A stretch of 12,266 nucleotides of DNA, taken from positions 1 through 12,266 of the forward strand of contig JAUSPT010000025.1 of NCBI GenBank assembly GCA_030652805.1, given 5' to 3'. Source of the DNA: a bacterium. GTDB lineage: Bacteria > JAHJDO01. A program made the translations under genes and the position numbers. Shown piece after piece: positions 598 to 12,124 of the stretch; the stretch's first letter is position 1; every line of letters starts with the position of its first letter. The notes under the pieces were generated by a model. That model made no database searches and was not told where the DNA came from. It saw only the letters and a program-made list of their open reading frames with translations.

Positions 598-1128
598 ATG
601 GAAAAAAAGTGGTATGTAATACACATACACTCGGGTTTTGAGGGTAAAGTAAAGATGCAGCTAGAATGCAAGCTAAAGCTTGCTAATATGGAGGGATTTG
701 TATCTCGAATATTAATTCCAACAGAGAACGTTGTAGAAGTTAAAGCTGGGAAAAAAAAGGTTAGTAGTAGAAAATTTTTTCCTGGTTATATTCTTATAGA
801 GATGGAAATGAATGACGAGGTTTGGCAATTGATACGAAATGTTCCCGGGGTTAGCGGTTTTATTGGAAATAGAAGAAAAGCTGTACCGCTTCCTGAGAAA
901 GAAGTACAGAAAATATTTGAAAAATTAAAGGAAAAAGAAGAAAAACCCAAACCAAAGGTAATGTTTGATAAAGGAGAAAGTATAAGGATTATAGAGGGAC
1001 CATTTGCCGATTTTAATGGTGAAATTGAAGAAGTTAGTCCAGAAAAAGGAAGATTAAAAGTAATGGTTTCTATTTTTGGCAGATCAACGCCTGTTGAATT
1101 AGAATCATGGCAGGTGGAAAAGATATAA
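598..1128 (+). CDS. nusG: Transcription termination/antitermination factor NusG
   Basis: NusG binds the RNA polymerase clamp and modulates pausing, Rho termination and coupling to the ribosome. The 176-residue length is normal. The N-terminal NGN domain (about residues 1-110) shows KWYVIHIHSGFEGKV near the start and FFPGYILIEMEMNDEVW with the NVPGVSGFIG motif in the middle. A charged Lys/Glu/Pro linker (about 103-120) leads to a C-terminal KOW domain (about 122-176) with the GESIRIIEGPFADFNGEIEEV signature. There is no large insert domain as in some lineages. The ribosome binding site is AAGGG at 588-592, 5 bases before the ATG. It lies in the conserved secE-nusG-rplK order and is probably cotranscribed with both. 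Confidence 0.97.
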   Translation: MEKKWYVIHIHSGFEGKVKMQLECKLKLANMEGFVSRILIPTENVVEVKAGKKKVSSRKFFPGYILIEMEMNDEVWQLIRNVPGVSGFIGNRRKAVPLPEKEVQKIFEKLKEKEEKPKPKVMFDKGESIRIIEGPFADFNGEIEEVSPEKGRLKVMVSIFGRSTPVELESWQVEKI

Positions 1129-1155
1129 TTTTTGAATTAAGGAGTAAATTTTAAT

Positions 1156-1587
1156 ATGGCAAAAGAGAGAAAAGTTGCAGGAATGATAAAGCTACAGATT
1201 TCAGCAGGAAAGGCAACACCAGCACCACCAGTAGGGCCGGCTCTAGGTCAACATGGCATTAATATAATGCAATTTTGTCAGGCATTCAATAATCAAACCA
1301 AAGACAAGGAAGGATTAATAATTCCTGTTGTTATAACAGTTTATGAGGATAAGTCCATTACGTTCATTACTAAATCTCCTCCAGCTGCAGTTCTCCTGAA
1401 GCAAGCTGCTGGTATTGCAAAAGCATCTGGAGAACCTAATAAAAATAAGATAGCAAAGGTAAGCAAAGATAAGGTTAGAGATATAGCAAAAATGAAAATG
1501 AAGGATTTGAATACTTCTAATATTGAATCTGCAATGAAGATTATTGCAGGCACTGCTAGAAGTATGGGGATTGAAATAGAGGGATAA
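1156..1587 (+). CDS. rplK: 50S ribosomal protein uL11
   Basis: uL11 forms the base of the ribosomal stalk with 23S rRNA helices 43/44, part of the GTPase-associated centre where EF-Tu and EF-G act and where thiostrepton binds. The 143-residue length is standard. The N-terminal domain holds the proline-rich [14 protein letters not shown] (residues 21-34), the thiostrepton-contact segment, with all expected prolines. The C-terminal rRNA-binding domain includes [15 protein letters not shown] and ends with [13 protein letters not shown] strong ribosome binding site AAGGAG (1139-1144) lies 11 bases before the ATG. The 27-base gap after nusG contains no obvious L1-binding operator. rplA follows after 13 bases. 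Confidence 0.98.
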
Positions 1588-1600
1588 AGGGAACACTAGA

Positions 1601-2293
1601 ATGGAAAAAAGAAGTAAGAGGTATCAGGCAGTTGAGAAGTTAATGGATAAAGAAAAAGCGTATGATCTTCCTCAGGCAGTTGAATTGCTGAAAAAAACAG
1701 CTAATGCAAAATTTGATGAAACGGTTAATATGGTCTTTCATCTAAGAGTGGACCCTAAGCAAGCTGACCAGCAGGTAAGAGGTGTTATAAATTTACCTCA
1801 TGGAACAGGCAAGACGGTAAGGATTGCGGCTTTTGCAAAGGGCGATAATATTGATAAAGTCAAGCAAGCAGGAGCTGACTTTGTCGGTGATAAAGATCTG
1901 ATGGATAAAATAAGCAAAGGTTGGCTTGATTTTGATGTTGTAGTTGCAACACCTGATATGATGAAAGAGATAAGTAAGTTAGGGAAGATACTTGGCCCAC
2001 GTGGATTAATGCCTAATCCAAAAAGCGGGACAGTTGCTTTGGATATAGCAGGAGCTGTAGCAGAGATTAAGGCAGGAAAAGTAGAGTATAGGCTAGATAA
2101 AGGAGCAAATTTGCATATAGTAGTGGGAAAAGTTTCTTTCTCCAAAGAGCAATTATCAGACAATATACTGACAGTTGCAAAGGAAATAATTCATGCAAAA
2201 CCTGCATCTTGTAAAGGGCAATATGTAAGAAATCTTGCTATTAGTTCCACAATGGGCCCATCAATAAGGCTTAACATTAGGGGAGTCACATGA
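1601..2293 (+). CDS. rplA: 50S ribosomal protein uL1
   Basis: uL1 forms the mobile L1 stalk beside the E site and helps release deacylated tRNA; in many bacteria it also represses its own rplK-rplA mRNA. The 230 residues match the family length. Visible signatures include MVFHLRVDPKQADQQVRG near residues 47-64 and the invariant LGPRGLMPNPKSGTV at 131-145, followed by an ending typical of domain I (SSTMGPSIRLNI). The ribosome binding site AAAGGGA (1586-1592) overlaps the rplK stop codon. The last codon overlaps the rplJ start in an ATGA arrangement (2290-2293), implying translational coupling of L1 and L10. Confidence 0.98.
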   Translation: MEKRSKRYQAVEKLMDKEKAYDLPQAVELLKKTANAKFDETVNMVFHLRVDPKQADQQVRGVINLPHGTGKTVRIAAFAKGDNIDKVKQAGADFVGDKDLMDKISKGWLDFDVVVATPDMMKEISKLGKILGPRGLMPNPKSGTVALDIAGAVAEIKAGKVEYRLDKGANLHIVVGKVSFSKEQLSDNILTVAKEIIHAKPASCKGQYVRNLAISSTMGPSIRLNIRGVT

Positions 2294-2874
2294 ATAAAGA
2301 TGAAAAAGCAAAAAGGGTAAAGGAATTAGTCAGGCAATTTCAGAGGAGCCCTAATAATATGATATTTACAGATTATAAAGGGTTAACAGTTAAGGAGATA
2401 TCAGGTTTACGAGAAACATTAAATGAAAAAGAAATATCATATAAGGTTATCAAAAATAGACTTGCATGTTTGGCATTAAAGGAGAGTGGTCTTAAGGGTT
2501 TGGACCATTTTTTTACAGGTCCTACAGCTATTGCTTTTGCACAAAATGATCCAACTGCTCCAGCAAAAGTGCTGTCAAAATGTTCAAAAGAATATGATTG
2601 TCTTAGTATTAAAGGAGGGTTTATTGATGAACTCGTTTTTTCCAGAGAACAGGTTGAAGAGATCGCTTTAATTCCTTCTAGAGATCAATTGCTTATGCAG
2701 TTAATAGGACAGCTTCAAGCTCCAATAGGTAATTTTGCATATTGTATTAGATCAATACTAGCCAGGTTTGTGTATGTTATTCACGCTGTTTTAGAAACAA
2801 AGAGAAAGGAAGATGTAATAGATAGTAGAGCTAATTCAAAGATAAAGGAGGTAGATAATGGTAACAAAAGCTAA
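2290..2874 (+). CDS. rplJ: 50S ribosomal protein uL10
   Basis: uL10 anchors the L12 dimers to the stalk base; its N-terminal domain binds 23S rRNA and L11, and its C-terminal helix binds L12. Near the N-terminus are [19 protein letters not shown] and [13 protein letters not shown] (about residues 27-63), then [22 protein letters not shown]. The helical L12-binding region (about 135-175) includes [20 protein letters not shown]. At 194 residues it is some 20 longer than usual; the excess is a charged tail after about residue 174 ([20 protein letters not shown]). The start overlaps the rplA stop and has AGGGGAG at 2279-2285 as ribosome binding site. The 3' end overlaps rplL by 17 bases and carries the strong rplL ribosome binding site, so the longer tail may exist partly to host it. 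Confidence 0.96.
2844..2851 (+). promoter_or_regulatory. Strong ribosome binding site that fixes the rplL start
   Basis: AAAGGAGG lies 6 bases before the ATG at 2858, inside the end of rplJ. It is the best Shine-Dalgarno match seen before a start in the window, fitting the need for several L12 copies per L10. It decides for the long L12 form: no other ATG, GTG or TTG occurs in frame before the ATG of residue 41, which would cut into the conserved N-terminal helices. Confidence 0.85.
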
Positions 2875-3325
2875 GAAAACAACAGAAGAATCAGTAAAGA
2901 AAGTTCCCCAGGTTGAGGCAGAAAAGCCATCTGCAAAAAAGCCAGACAAAGCTAGTATTATAGATCTGGTAAAGAGTATGACAGTTTTAGAGTTATCGAA
3001 TCTTGTCAAAGATTTAGAAAAAGAATTTGGTGTTACTGCTGCTCCAGTTAGTATTGGAGCTGTCTCTCCAGGTGCAGCGTCTGCTTCTGCTGCTCCTGAG
3101 GAAGCGAAGGAAAAGACAACGTTTACTGTCTTATTAAAACAGTTTGGGGATAAGAAGATTCAGGTAATAAAGGAAGTAAGAGCTATTACAGAGTTGGGAC
3201 TTAAGGAAGCGAAAGATCTAGTAGAGAGCGCACCAAAGCCTATTAAGGAAAATGTTTCAAAGGATGAAGCCGAGGAACTCAAGAAGAAATTAGAAGCTGT
3301 TGGTGCTGTTGTAGAATTGCAGTAA
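2858..3325 (+). CDS. rplL: 50S ribosomal protein bL12, with N-terminal extension
   Basis: bL12 is the multicopy stalk protein that recruits translation GTPases. Here it has 155 residues instead of about 120-125. Compared with E. coli L12, about 26 extra residues precede the dimerisation domain; they are rich in Lys and Glu with several Pro ([15 protein letters not shown] onward to about 31). The dimerisation and L10-binding domain follows (about 32-60), then an Ala/Pro/Ser hinge (about 60-85), then the C-terminal factor-binding domain with [16 protein letters not shown] (about 111-126) and an AVGAVVELQ end. The hinge and C-terminal domain look normal. Start choice rests on the strong upstream ribosome binding site. 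The gene overlaps rplJ by 17 bases and is followed by a 67-base gap before rpoBC. Confidence 0.95.
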
Positions 3326-3347
3326 TGCTAGTCTTTAAAGATATAAT
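3317..3347 (+). promoter_or_regulatory. Possible internal promoter ahead of rpoBC
   Basis: A perfect -10 box TATAAT lies at 3342-3347. The best -35 candidate is TTGCAG at 3317-3322, over the rplL end, but the spacer is 19 bases, longer than ideal, and there is no extended -10. It would give a transcript starting near the hairpin at 3352. In an AT-rich genome such a -10 arises easily by chance, so this is a weak call. Confidence 0.3.
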
Positions 3348-3351
3348 AATT

Positions 3352-3366
3352 GCTGCTAAAAGCAGC
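3352..3366 (+). terminator. Small hairpin in the rplL-rpoBC gap, possible attenuator
   Basis: GCTGC-TAAAA-GCAGC forms a 5-bp GC-rich stem with a 5-base loop; a sixth T-A pair would leave only a 3-base loop. Downstream is a short T run (TTTT, 3371-3374), too weak for a full terminator. In E. coli the same gap holds an attenuator and an RNase III site that lower rpoBC expression relative to rplL, so a partial terminator or processing site is plausible. This is inferred from position and shape. Confidence 0.4.
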
Positions 3367-3392
3367 CTAATTTTGGTAAAGGGAGAATAAGT

Positions 3393-6300
3393 ATGTCTCA
3401 ACGTGTGTCTAATTCTTCTGGTAGAGATTTATATTGTCAGATATCTCCTGTTATGAATGTTCCCGATTTAATGTATGTTCAAAGGGAGCCATATGCAGAA
3501 TTTCTTCAGAGGAATGTAACTCAAGCAAATCGTAAGAATCAGGGACTTCAGGCAGTATTTAACGAGTTTTTTCCAATAATAGACGAAAAGGAGAGATTCT
3601 GCCTGGAATTTTTAAATTATAGTATTGGTGATCCTAAATACAATGTGTCTGAATGTGAGAGATGTGGGGCAACATATGCTGCGCCTCTTAAGGTAAGAAT
3701 GAAACTGACCATTAATGAGGAGGGTTCCACCAAAGCAGGCAGTGCAAGAGAGCAGGAAATGTATTTACTGGATTTGCCTCTTATGACAGAGCAGGGGACG
3801 TTTATCATCAATGGATCAGAGAGAGTTATTGTTAGTCAGTTACATAGATCCCCGGGTCTTTATTGTCAGAAAAAGGAAGTTTCCAATGAAAAAGAGCTTT
3901 ATTCAGCACGTCTTATTCCGTACAGAGGGGTCTGGCTTGAGTTTGAATTTGATGCTAATGATGTGCTTTATGTTAGTATGGACCGTAAAAGAAAGATGCT
4001 TGCTACAGTTTTGCTTAGAGCGTTTGGATATGTGACAGATGAAGAGATTATCAGGCTTTTCTATAATTGTAAGGAGAAGATAATTACAAATGAGACAGTG
4101 GCTGATGATCTTGTTAATGAAATTCTGTCAGAGGACGTAGTTGATGAAAATACAGGGGAGATCATAGCAGAGAGTAAAGAAAGAATAACTCCTTCTATTG
4201 CTAAGAAGATATTAACATTCAAGATTAAAAGCATAAACATAATAGAAATGTCCGTCAAAGATATTTCTATTATAAATACACTTGCAAAAGATCATAGAAA
4301 ATCAAAAGAAGAAGCTTTTGTAGAAATATATAAAAGATTGCGTCCAAGTGATCACTTTACAATAGATACTGCTGAGACTTATTTTAAGGACATTATTTAT
4401 AATCCCAGAAGATACGATCTTTCACAAGTTGGGAGATATAAGCTAAATCAGAAGTTAGGTCTTAATTATTCTTTGGACAAGACGACATTAGATAAGGAAG
4501 ACATAGTAAAAACAATCAATTATTTGCTTCTAGCAAAGTGCAATAAAGAAGATGAGGATGATATTGACCATCTTTGGAATAGAAGAGTTAGAACTGTTGG
4601 GGAATTACTACAGTCTCAGTTTAGAATAGGGCTTGCTAAGTTAGAGAGGTCTGTAAAAGAGAGAATAGCATTTCAGGAGCCAGATACTGTTATGCCGCAT
4701 GATTTAATTAATGGACGGTTAATTTCTTCGACAGTAAATGATTTTTTTGCGCGTGGACAGCTATCACAATTTATGGATCAAACAAATCCCTTAGCAGAAC
4801 TTACTCATAAAAGAAGACTAAGCGCCTTAGGGCCTGGAGGACTTACAAGGGAAAGAGCAGGGTTTGAGGTTAGGGATGTTCATCCAACTCACTATGGACG
4901 TATTTGTTCTATAGAAACGCCTGAAGGGCCTAATATTGGGTTGATAGCCTCTCTTGCTACATATACGAGGGTTAATAAATTTGGACTGTTAGAAACACCT
5001 GCAAGGAGAGTTGTCAATGGTCGAGTGACCAATGAAGTGGTTTGGCTGTCTGCCGATCCTGGTAATAAGAATGTTGTTGCTCAAGCTAATGCAAAGATTG
5101 ATAAAAAAGGGCATTTTATTGACGATGAGATATCGGTTAGAATTAAAGGCGACTTTCGTAAAGTCTCTCCAAAAGATGTGAATTTTGTGGATGTCTCACC
5201 CGATCAGATAGTTAGTGTAGCTGCAGGATTAATTCCTTTTTTAGAGCATGATGATGCAAACAGAGCTCTTATGGGGTCAAATATGCAGAGGCAGGCAGTT
5301 CCTCTTCTAAATCCGGAAGCTCCCCTGATTGGTACAGGAATGGAGAGTATTGTTGCCAAATGGTCTGGATCTGCCGTTGCTGCTAAGAGAGCAGGGATTG
5401 TGGAATCGGTATGTTCTGATAAGATAATTATTCGTCCAGAAGAAAGCAAGGATGATTTTGATGAATATATATTGAAAAAATTCGAAAAATCAAATCAAAA
5501 CACCTGTATTAATCAGCGACCGATTGTTAAAGAGGGAGAAAGAGTCTCTAAGAATGATATCATAGCTGAAGCCTCTGCCACAGATAATAAGGAATTAGCT
5601 TTGGGACAAAATCTGTTGGTAGCATTTATGCCATGGAGAGGATATAATTTTGAAGATGCTATTGTCATCAGTGAAAAACTGGTTAGGGATGATACTTGTA
5701 CCTCTATTCATATTGAGCAATTAGAAGTAGAAGCAAGGGAAACAAAACTTGGGAAAGAAGAGATCACTCGTGATATACCTAATGTTAGTGATGGAGAGCT
5801 GGCTAATCTGGACGAGCATGGGATTGTACGAATTGGGACACATGTAAAACCAGGAGATATATTAGTAGGGAAAGTGACTCCTAAGAGCGAAACAGGTCTG
5901 ACGTCTGAAGAAAAATTACTGATAGCAATTTTTGGAGAAAAGGCTAGTGATGTACTTAACACATCTTTAACTGTTCCCGTTGGTGTAGAGGGGGTAGTTA
6001 CAGATGTTAGAATATTGTCAAGACGTGATAAGGACGATATTGATGGTTTGGGGAAAAAGATTATTGAGGATATTGAGCATAGAATTGACGAGGAGATCAG
6101 AAAGACTAAGGATAATCTAATTGAGGCACTTGGGAGCCTTATTAGAGGGGAAGTAATAGCTGAGGATATGATTAATAAGAATGGAAAAGTCTTTCTCTCT
6201 GCTGGACAGAAAGTTAGAATAAAAGATGTGGATAATATACCTGTCAAGTATTTGAGAAGACTTAGAGTTAAAAATAACAACATCAATAAAAAACTTCTTG

Positions 6301-9300
6301 CATTAATTGAAAGCTTTGAGGAAGAATTAAAGTCTCTTAGTAAAGAGAGGAAACTAGAAGTAGAAAAGATCAAGAAGGGAGATGAACTTTCACCAGGTGT
6401 AATAAAACGTATAATGGTTTATATAGGCAATAAGAGAAAAATCTCAAAGGGAGATAAGGTCTCTGGCAGGCATGGTAATAAGGGTGTGATTGCAAAAATA
6501 TTGCCAGAGGAAGATATGCCGTATTTATCAGATGGAACATCAGTGGAAATTTTGCTTAATCCTTTAGGCGTTCCTTCAAGAATGAATGTGGGCCAAATTT
6601 TGGAAACTCATCTTGGGTGGGTAGCCAAGGTTTTGGGTATAAAGATTGCGACTCCTGTTTTTAATGGAATTAAAGAGGCAGAAATAAAACAGCTTCTTAA
6701 AAAGGCAGGGTTGCCTGAAGATGGTCAGGTTACTTTGTATGACGGGATGACAGGGGAATCATTTGATAATAAGATAACTGTTGGCTATATTTACATGATG
6801 AAGTTGTCACATCTTGTGGATGATAAGATGCATGCTCGTGCAACAGGTCCGTATTCATTAGTTACTCAGCAGCCTTTGGGAGGAAAGGCTCAGTTTGGAG
6901 GACAGCGTTTTGGCGAGATGGAGGTATGGGCATTAGAAGCATATGGTGCTGCTTATACTTTACAAGAATTGCTTACAGTAAAAAGTGACGACGTTGTTGG
7001 CAGAATGCGGATATACGAAAGTATTGTAAAGGGAGAAAATACAGTTCAATCCGGCATACCAGAGTCTTTCAATGTTTTATTGAAAGAGTTACAAGGTTTA
7101 GGATTGGGAGCTAAACTTGTAAGGGCTAAAGGGCCTCGTGTATTTTCTGATCTTGCTTTTCGAAAATGGCAACCTAATAGCTCGGAGGAATTTCAAAACG
7201 GAACGGATACGATTGAAGCCATATCTATTAGTTTGGTTTCTCCTGAAGAGATCAGGCTGTGGTCTAAAGGAGAAGTTAGAAAGCCAGAAACTATAAATTA
7301 TAGAACATTCAGGCCGGAAAAAGATGGGCTTTTTTGTGAAAGAATCTTTGGTCCAACAAAGGATTGGGAATGTTACTGCGGTAAATATAAGAGGATTAGG
7401 CATAAAGGGGTAATTTGCGATAGATGTGGTGTGGAAGTTACACAATCTAAAGTGAGGCGTCAACGTATGGGGCATATAAGTCTTGCTTCACCAGTAGCTC
7501 ATGTTTGGCTTTTTAAGGTTGTACCAAGTTATATGAGTACATTACTTGATTTGAGTTTGAAGAATATAGAAAAGATTCTCTATTATGAGAGTTATGTAGT
7601 GCTGGATGCTGGAAAGACCTCTTTAGGGAAGTATCAGCTTTTAAGTGATGAGGAGTATGAGAAATACAGAGAAGAATTCGGAAATGGATTTCATGCAGAG
7701 ATGGGGGCTTCAGCTATTAAAAAAATGCTACAAGAGATTGATTTAGATAAACTTGCAGAGAGTTTGAGGGAAAAAGAGGGGAAAACAGCATTTAAACAGG
7801 CAAAGAAAAAAATTAATAAGAGGTTAAGGGTTGTTGAAGCCTTTCACACTTCTGGTAGTAGACCTGAGTGGATGATTATGGATGTTATACCTGTTATACC
7901 TCCAGACTTAAGACCTTTAGTGCCTTTAGATGGAGGACGCTTTGCGACCTCGGATTTGAATGACTTATATCGAAGAGTTATTAATCGAAATAACAGGCTG
8001 AAGAGACTTCTAGAACTAGGTGCACCTAACATAATTATTAGAAATGAGAAAAGGATGTTACAGGAATCGGTTGATGCTCTATTTGATAATGGCAGACATG
8101 GCAGGACAGTAGTTGGACATGGTAATCGTCCGCTTAAATCTCTTAGCAACATGTTGGGTGGAAAACAGGGTAGATTTAGACAGAATCTTTTGGGAAAACG
8201 CGTTGATTATTCTGGAAGATCAGTTATTGTTGTGGATCCAAGATTGAAACTACATCAATGTGGTTTACCTAAGCGCATGGCGTTAGAACTGTTTGAGCCA
8301 TTTGTGATTAGAAAATTAAGAGAGAGGGGAATAATAAATACTATAAAGAATGCAAAGAAGATGCTGGAAAAAGCAGAAGCGGAAATATGGGATATTCTTG
8401 ATGATGTAATAAAGAATCGTTACGTTTTACTTAACAGGGCTCCAACATTACATAGATTAGGTATACAGGCATTTCAGCCTGTTCTTATTGAAGGGAAGGC
8501 AATAGGAGTCCATCCTTTGGTTTGTGCAGCGTTTAATGCAGATTTTGATGGAGACCAAATGGCAGTTCATGTGCCTCTTACACCAGAGGCTGAGTTAGAA
8601 GCAGAGTTTTTAATGTTACCAAGTAGGAATATTTTTTCTCCTGCTAGTGGAGAAGCAATAATGGTGCCAAGACAGGAGATTGTATTAGGATGCTATTACT
8701 TGACAAAAGAAAAGCAGAGCAATAGGAAAGAAGAAAAGATATTTTCATCATCTGACGAAGCAATTATTGCATATGATTCTAAAAAAGTGAAATTGCATTC
8801 TAGGGTAAAGATAAGGATAAATGGAGAACTGATAGAGACAACTGTAGGGAGAATTCTGTTTAATGAAATTTTGCCTAATTCATTGCAGTTTGTAAATAGG
8901 GTGTTTGATAAAGACAAACTGGGTGACTTAATTGAAGAGAGTTTCAAAAAGGAAGGATATCATCAGACAGTTATAATGCTGGACAGGATTAAGACATTAG
9001 GATTTGAGATGGCTACTAAGGGCGGCATTTCCATTTGTATTGATAATATAGTTATTCCTGCAATAAAGAGTAAGTTATTGGAGCAAGGGAAACGAGAGGC
9101 TAGTATTGTTGAGGAGCAGTATAGGAAGGGCGTTATTACTGATGGAGAGAGATATAATAAGGTGATTGATGTATGGACACATACTACGGATAAGGTCTCA
9201 GATGCCATGTTTAAAGAGATGGAAAAAGATCCTTTTAATCCTGTTCTAATGATGCTGCTTTCAGGTGCAAGAGGCAGCAGTCAGCAGATAAGGCAATTGG

Positions 9301-11258
9301 CAGGCATGCGGGGACTAATGGCTAAACCTAAGAAGAAGATTATAGGAGAGATAGGAGAGATCATAGAAACTCCTATAATGACAAACTTCCGTGAGGGACT
9401 GAGTATGTTGGAATATTTTATCTCAACTCATGGGGCTAGAAAAGGTTTGGCAGATACAGCTTTGAAAACTGCAGAAGCAGGATACTTAACCAGGAGATTG
9501 GTCGATGTAGCACAGGACGTAGTTGTTACAAGCGAAGATTGCAGAACACTTAACGGTATAAGCGTTGTAGCAATTAAAGAAGGAGACAGAACTATTGAAT
9601 CACTTAAAGACAGGCTTGCAGGGCGAATAGCATTGGAAGATATAAAAATACCCTTGTTGGATAATATAATCGTTAAAGCAGGCGAGGAGATTGCAGATGA
9701 AATGGCAGAAGTCATAGAGGAGGCAGGAGTAGAAAAGGTAATGATAAGGTCTGTTCTAACATGTGAGCAGGAGAAGGGGATTTGTGCTAAATGTTATGGT
9801 AGAGATCTTACAACAAAGAAGCGAGTTAGAGTGGGAGAAGCTGTAGGAATTATTGCAGCTCAGTCCATAGGAGAACCTGGAACTCAGCTTACTCTAAGAA
9901 CTTTTCATATTGGAGGAACAGCTAGTAGAATAATTGGTGCCTCAAAAATAGTAGCCATTAATGATGGCATTGTTAAATTTCACGGAATAAGAACAGTGGT
10001 GGATAAGAATAATAACGTAGTAGTGATTAACAGGAATGGAGAAATAGCAATAGAAAATGCAGAAGAGAAGGAATTAGAAAGATGCAATATGCCTTTGGGC
10101 AGTGTACTTAAGTTTAAAGATAATGATGTAGTAAAAAGAAAAACCGTGTTAGCTGAGTGGGATCCATATACCTTGCCCGTAATTTCTATAGTGAGTGGGG
10201 AAGTAAAATTTATTGATATAATTGAAGGTCTTACAATGAAGACCGAAGTAGATAAGATCACCGGGAAAAAAGAAAGGATTATTACAGATTACCGAAGCAC
10301 TGGTATGCATACACAAATATTGATACAAGACAAGAATGGAGAGGTGTTAAATTACCATAGTATCCCAAGTGGAGCGTACCTAATAGTTAAAGAGGGAGAG
10401 CAAGTTTTGGTAGGGGATTTGTTAGCAAAGACTACAAGGGAAAGAAGTAAAACCAGAGATATTACAGGAGGATTACCAAGAATCGCTGAACTCTTTGAAG
10501 CGAGGAGACCTAAGAATCCTGCTATAGTGACTGAGATAGATGGAATAGTGGATGAACCTGTTGGTCTTAAGAAGAATATGCGTAGAATAACTGTGACAGC
10601 AGATAATGGTGACGAAAAAGAATATCTCATTCCTCATGGTAAGCACTTGATTGTTTATAAAGGCGATAGGGTAAAAGCAGGTGATCAGCTTACAGATGGA
10701 TCTGTGATTCTTGATGAAATATTAAGAATAGAGGGAGATAGGAGATTACAGGAATATTTATTAAATGAAGTTCAGGAAGTTTATCGGCTGCAAGGTGTTT
10801 ATATCAATGATAAACATATAGGATTAATTGTAAGACAGATGCTTAGAAAAGTCAGCATAGAAGATAGTGGAGATACTAAGCTCTTAGCTGGAGAACAAGT
10901 AGATAAAGTTGTTTTTAAAAAAGAAAATGAAAGAGCTGTCGCAGAAAATAAAAAACCTGCTCGTGCAATACCAGTTCTTCAGGGTATTACACGAGCGTCT
11001 ATAAATACAGAAAGTTTTATATCAGCTGCTTCATTTCAGGAAACTACGCGAGTTTTAACCAAGGCTACTGTTTTTTCTAAGGTAGATAGATTATCTGGAT
11101 TAAAAGAAAATGTAATAATTGGACGTTTAATTCCTGCTGGTACAGGGTGGGCTCACTATAGGAATATAACATTAACAGGAACTGAGTTATCCGATAAAAA
11201 GGATACGGAAGAGGCTAAAGATAAAGATAATAGTAGTGTGGAAGAGGTGAAAGATTAG
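3393..11258 (+). CDS. rpoBC: Fused RNA polymerase beta and beta' subunits
   Basis: One uninterrupted 2621-codon frame encodes both large catalytic subunits of RNA polymerase. The beta part (about 1-1243) has the rifampicin-pocket segment at 456-479 with Q459, D462, H472 and S477 as in sensitive enzymes, ED at 754-755 of GYNFEDAI, and the lysines K1022 and K1030 of [13 protein letters not shown]505 is followed by Ser where most bacteria have Pro. After a linker of about 30 residues, beta' (about 1274-2621) shows the N-terminal zinc site (C1327, C1329, C1342, C1345), the catalytic NADFDGD with D1717, D1719 and D1721, the bridge helix (around 1957-1978), the second zinc site (C2050, C2124, C2131, C2134) and the trigger loop with R2169 and H2172. 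The trigger loop carries the long insert of Gram-negative enzymes, and a flap-region insert is also seen. The end is an acidic/lysine tail. The ribosome binding site is AAAGGGAG (3378-3385). Natural fusions are known in Helicobacter, Wolinella and Wolbachia. Confidence 0.97.
7122..7211 (+). other. Beta-beta' fusion linker
   Basis: Residues 1244-1273 join the last recognisable beta segment ([16 protein letters not shown]) to the first beta' homology ([15 protein letters not shown]). The linker has no conserved motif I recognise. It contains no ATG, GTG or TTG in frame before the beta' core; the first in-frame TTG (7233) lies inside conserved sequence. GGAGG occurs at 7184-7188, and in another frame tandem stops TAA-TAG lie at 7175-7180. 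These could be relics of separate genes. With no usable start codon after GGAGG, independent beta' translation looks unlikely. Confidence 0.8.
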
Positions 11259-11272
11259 GAAAGGGAATAAAT

Positions 11273-11644
11273 ATGCCAAGATTGTCACAATTGATAAAAA
11301 AAAGCAGGAAGAAGAATACAAAGAAAACGTCTACTCCTGCCTTAAAAGGTTCTCCTCAAAAGCGAGGAGTATGTACCAGGGTGTATACGGTTACTCCTAA
11401 AAAGCCAAATTCAGCATTAAGAAAGGTGGCTAGAGTGAGATTGACGAGTGGTGTGGAGGTTACAGCTTATATTCCTGGAATAGGACATAATCTACAGGAA
11501 CATTCAATTGTTTTAATTAGAGGTGGAAGCGTTGCAGATCTTCCGGGTGTTAGATACCACATAGTTAGAGGAGCTTTGGATACTGCAGGGGTTACGGATA
11601 GAAAGAAAAGCAGGTCTAGATATGGTGCAAAAAGAGCAAAATAA
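11273..11644 (+). CDS. rpsL: 30S ribosomal protein uS12
   Basis: uS12 sits at the decoding centre and controls accuracy of tRNA selection; it is the classic streptomycin-resistance target. The 123 residues align with E. coli S12 without gaps through position 88. K43 in [11 protein letters not shown] is kept. Position 88, nearly always Lys, is Ala here (GCA at 11534-11536), and Arg86 is Ser, giving [14 protein letters not shown]. The following Asp89, the RimO methylthiolation site in E. coli, is retained. The rest is typical, including the basic end [11 protein letters not shown]. The start lies 14 bases after the rpoBC stop with a purine-rich AAAGGGA upstream. The position 88 change would be expected to affect streptomycin binding or decoding; that is inference. 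Confidence 0.97.
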
Positions 11645-11656
11645 AGGAGACATGTA

Positions 11657-12124
11657 ATGCCTAGAAAGGGGAGGGTTACTAAAAGGACAATAACACCGGA
11701 TCCTAAATACAGTGACCAAATAGTAGCTAAATTTGTAAATTGTATTATGAGAAGAGGCAAAAAAAGTTTGGCTGAATCTATACTCTATGATTCTTTGGAT
11801 ATTATACATAAGAGTACAAAAAAAGACTCTTTGGAAGTGTTCAAGCAGGCTCTTGATAATGTAAAGCCGGTTTTAGAGGTTAAGTCCAAAAGAATTGGAG
11901 GCGCTACGTATCAAGTACCTATAGAAGTTAGCTCTGATAGGAGAACAAGTTTGGCTATGCGCTGGATTATAACTTATGCTAAAGCGAGAAAGGGCAAAAG
12001 CATGGGGGAAAAATTGGCGCAGGAAATTGTGGACGCATCTAAAGGCGAAGGAACTTCCGTAAAAAAGAAAGAAGACGTCCATAAAATGGCAGAAGCTAAT
12101 AAAGCTTTTGCGCATTATAGATAA
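11657..12124 (+). CDS. rpsG: 30S ribosomal protein uS7
   Basis: uS7 nucleates assembly of the 30S head and contacts E-site tRNA and mRNA near the exit channel; in E. coli it also represses the str operon. Its 155 residues are the usual length. It begins [18 protein letters not shown], carries the [16 protein letters not shown] segment and the hallmark [11 protein letters not shown] at 81-91, then the [10 protein letters not shown] helix and an end with [13 protein letters not shown] strong ribosome binding site AAAGGAG (11643-11649) overlaps the rpsL stop, so rpsL and rpsG are surely cotranscribed. The gene is followed not by fusA but by a promoter and tuf. Confidence 0.98.

Follow-up and report, generated by a model that had tools for sequence, protein, structure and literature searches.

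A natural rpoB-rpoC fusion and its distribution among bacterial phyla

The gene layout of RNA polymerase is usually taken as nearly invariant, and the only paper in our search to mention natural fusions of rpoB with rpoC gives the Helicobacteraceae and Wolbachia as the sole cases (PMC7483510). NCBIfam holds two curated fusion families, NF007172 for the Helicobacter type (PRK09603, 2890 aa) and NF011417 for the Wolbachia type (PRK14844, 2839 aa), and our literature search, which covered few subscription papers, turned up no description of a fusion beyond Wolbachia and the relatives of Helicobacter. The rpoBC gene described here shares the architecture of both, with beta and beta' in one frame joined, as in the Helicobacter-type protein, by a short linker. 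At 2621 aa versus 2890, its product is shorter than the Helicobacter-type protein, and it also differs in its linker and in its place in trees. It scores 2862 against NF007172, well below the cut-off of 5372, whereas the Helicobacter-type genome in our sample (G045) passes at 5736. Against NF011417 it reaches 2710, with a cut-off of 4632, and it is by this score that the lineage differs from Wolbachia, our trees being built without Wolbachia rows. The architecture itself is already known; what is new, as far as we have checked, is how widely it occurs, that it is fixed across whole phyla and that it arose repeatedly.

The window, by which we mean the whole 12,266-base stretch analyzed, is an entire contig of a metagenome-assembled genome of 2.0 Mb (completeness 95.6%, contamination 2.2%), and all of its genes lie on the + strand. 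The rpoBC gene occupies positions 3393-11258 as a single reading frame of 2621 codons, which begins with ATG and runs without an internal stop. Its beta (RpoB) part, at 3393-7136 (aa 1 to about 1248), matches TIGR02013 over the full length of the model (aa 14-1240 to model positions 8-1236 of 1238, 1732 bits versus a cut-off of 801), and its beta' (RpoC) part, at 7218-11255 (aa 1276-2621), does the same with TIGR02386 (aa 1277-2590 to model positions 2-1146 of 1147, 1780 bits versus a cut-off of 963). The Pfam Rpb2 domains and Rpb1 domains 1-5 follow one another in order along the fused protein. A hydrophilic linker of 27 residues (7137-7217, aa about 1249-1275) separates the end of beta from the start of the beta' core. 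The first-pass annotation had described the catalytic and zinc residues as intact, and each of them can indeed be read in the protein: the lysine motif of beta (13 residues, at 1019), the magnesium-binding active-site loop of beta' (NADFDGD, within a ten-residue motif at aa 1715, 8535-8564), the first zinc site of beta' (CYC at 1327 and CDRC at 1342), and the second (C2050 and an 11-residue motif at 2124). An AlphaFold model of a 705-residue stretch spanning the junction had a pLDDT of 45, which is too low for interpretation. Except that rpoB and rpoC are joined, the order of the surrounding genes is the standard layout. A tRNA-Trp and then a secE-like frame precede nusG; nusG, rplK, rplA, rplJ and rplL (598-3325, + strand, from the ORF sequences) lie upstream of rpoBC in the usual order, and rpsL and rpsG (11273-12124, + strand, likewise) lie downstream. 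The 2.0 Mb assembly contains a single match to rpoC domain 1, and a second, split copy of rpoC was not seen in it.

Judged from the sequence, the locus is very probably a natural fusion that encodes both catalytic subunits as a single chain, in a bacterial RNA polymerase that is ordinary in other respects. The product is most likely functional, a core of the usual kind in which beta is tethered to beta'. The polymerase core has the composition alpha2-beta-beta'-omega, and the C-terminus of beta lies near the N-terminus of beta' in this enzyme, so that a short tether should be tolerated; engineered beta-beta' fusions of E. coli work, and the independent fusions found elsewhere show that the joint has been tolerated repeatedly. 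The event would have begun with an ancestral operon in which rpoB and rpoC stood end to end. An indel or the loss of a stop in an ancestor would have joined the two frames, the rpoC start codon would then have been lost, and the old rpoB end, the spacer and the rpoC start could have become a flexible linker. The fused chain would assemble with alpha and omega into the usual core enzyme, in which beta and beta' are joined from the outset and invariably present 1:1. Such forced 1:1 synthesis and tethered assembly would fit the absence of a beta' start codon.

The first-pass annotation had regarded fusions of this kind as rare outside the two described groups, and this part of its account does not hold. 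A genome was counted as fused when a frame crossed the junction without a stop, and the DNA of representatives was then read for stops and for runs of N. Besides the Helicobacter type, there are seven phylum-level groups in which all testable genomes are fused, 58 genomes altogether; representatives of each group were read base by base, and the rest rely on the search reporting no stop. These groups are the phylum of the window (4/4 testable genomes) and the phyla of G197 (7/7, in five families), G236 (7/7), G094 (3/3), G042 (2/2), G246 (30/30) and G104 (5/5). For the phylum of G246, 26 matches cross the joint, and reading of the DNA confirmed the fusion in another four, whose linkers are very short; the match in G588 ends at the joint. 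Several members of that phylum (L203-L206, L216 and L218) are nearly linkerless, the aligned ends of the two subunits being only 4-5 residues apart. In a broad sample of 385 genomes from some 330 genera, 368 had a match and 19 of these were fused. The fusion is thus far more common than one would expect from the textbook cases, Helicobacter and Wolbachia. In the phylum of G377, 137 genomes had a match, and a fused frame was seen in none of them; this phylum is probably Omnitrophota, because it pairs with an Omnitrophota record (L127) in trees. G088, which showed a long frame in the broad sample, proved on reading to have split genes. In another genome (G017, locus L074), about 2.1 kb lies between rpoB and rpoC in place of the usual adjacency.

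The closest named split relative is the Omnitrophota record L127, in which rpoB and rpoC are adjacent and share 55% (beta) and 62% (beta') identity with the fused protein. The two genes of L127 are separated by a stop, followed by a ribosome site and the ATG of rpoC, where the rpoBC gene of the window continues in one frame. When trees were built from each half separately, the genus fell into one clade with L127 and other genomes (support 99 for beta, 96 for beta'). The lineage had been called different and deep-branching in the first-pass annotation; the difference is borne out, while its position is more aptly described as that of a clade next to the Omnitrophota-type group. When beta and beta' were concatenated (26 rows, 2414 columns) and analyzed with a site-heterogeneous model, the genus and the phyla of G236 and G197 came out as a single clade, fused throughout (bootstrap 100, SH-aLRT 98), within which the genus and the phylum of G236 were closest partners (100/100). 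A 39-row tree that lacked the phylum of G236 supported the genus with the phylum of G197 at 97/93. A quick 60-row tree broke the all-fused clade up, but the likelihood rose by 41.6 when its 11 rows were constrained to one group. Resolution at the base of the wider clade is poor. These trees suggest that the fusion of the three phyla goes back to one ancestral event, beside a split Omnitrophota-type phylum.

A single clade for all 19 fused rows was rejected (p-AU 1.9e-7), which argues for about six origins if the ancestry was split; the split arrangement is taken as ancestral from its prevalence, and gain and later splitting are not separable by these trees alone. If the 11 rows are taken as a single clade, the fused groups occupy six places: that clade, the phyla of G094, G042, G246 and G104, and the Helicobacter type. 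The alternative that fares best is an older fusion that also covered the phylum of G094 (L189), after which the Omnitrophota-type lineages would have split their genes again. Holding L189 together with the 11 rows was indeed not rejected, but that 12-row constraint gained 14.2 over the free tree as against 41.6 for the 11-row constraint, and the careful 26-row tree sets L189 apart (100/99), so that we regard the older fusion as unlikely. We consider it likely instead that the beta-beta' fusion is a fixed, phylum-level trait with about six origins among the sampled Bacteria besides Wolbachia, one of them shared and derived in three or more uncultured phyla that stand next to Omnitrophota, and that it is of use there as a rare genomic marker. 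Phylum-wide fusions of several origins imply that cells can do without making beta and beta' separately, and that the two are joined easily and lastingly. The junction can readily serve to relate uncultured phyla to one another, and analysis pipelines in which RpoB and RpoC count as two markers are affected.

An open frame could still yield two subunits if the cell initiated translation within the linker or cut the chain by proteolysis. The linker contains a GGAGGA (7184-7189, + strand) that is possibly a relic of the rpoC ribosome-binding site; L127 has GAGGAA right before its rpoC ATG, and the linker sequence may thus be a remnant of the old site. No start codon stands behind it, however: in-frame ATG, GTG and TTG are absent from 7107 to 7232 in the window, which leaves beta' without an ordinary start of its own, and the TTG at 7233 falls within the conserved beginning of beta' and has no ribosome site at the right distance. 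The GGAGGA was also considered as a conserved internal start and rejected, since it is no better conserved than chance: identity is seen at 62% of the invariant codons, and stretches of at least four occur 63 times. The sole hint of internal initiation comes from the linker of another species of the genus (L032), where an in-frame ATG lies 19 bases behind a GAGGAA. We therefore think it quite improbable that two subunits are made by either of these routes; later cleavage of the chain, or initiation of beta' at a non-standard codon, is possible. Synthesis as a single chain is the reading adopted here.

The junction itself is real. The phylum of the window in GTDB was sampled by five genomes, all of one genus, and the same in-frame junction is present in all four that are testable for rpoBC: the window, L031 (G002), L032 (G004) and L033 (G003). 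The G003 contig has two open ends but includes the joint; the fifth genome, which is 62% complete, is without the gene. The linker is identical in length across the four genomes and differs in sequence between species, whereas most of the 100-residue blocks that flank it are 85-100% identical to the window protein. This combination of constant length, diverged sequence and conserved flanks argues for a real tether under weaker constraint. Neither an indel nor a stop occurs at 7100-7220 in any of the four assemblies; either of them would have spoken against the first-pass claim of a genuine fusion and not an accident of annotation. With the open frame, two full-length halves and one junction in four assemblies, that claim is confirmed, and the rpoBC of the window is a real, conserved rpoB-rpoC fusion. 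A lost stop or shifted frame in the assembly or consensus could in principle have joined two separate genes, the window being a metagenome contig, but four species share the junction and linker length with diverged sequence and no N, and fused frames recur in related phyla, so that such an error is hardly credible. An apparent fusion in Nitrospirota (L115) was exactly such an artefact and was rejected, because a scaffold gap of N runs across its joint; scans for fusions need to be screened for runs of N.

Common descent with the Helicobacter-type or Wolbachia fusion, or transfer from one of them, is suggested by the shared architecture and is extremely improbable given scores about half of both curated cut-offs, the rejection of a forced clade of the genus with the Helicobacter-type row (p-AU 0.0014), and the position of both halves in the clade on the Omnitrophota side. 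In the separate trees neither half groups with G045 or with the alphaproteobacterial rows (Wolbachia itself being absent), and the independence from the Helicobacter type that had been proposed for this fusion is thereby upheld.

Large insertions in beta' were encountered in two other genomes. In L036 (G043, 8790-11100), an unrelated genome, about 415 residues are inserted into beta' close to the second zinc site; surrounded by degenerate repeats, a restriction-endonuclease-like domain (Pfam MTES_1575, also DUF559) lies in this insert. In L037 (G040, 874-7002), where beta' has 2043 residues, an insert of about 510 residues, for which no Pfam match was found, lies in the N-terminal part of the subunit.
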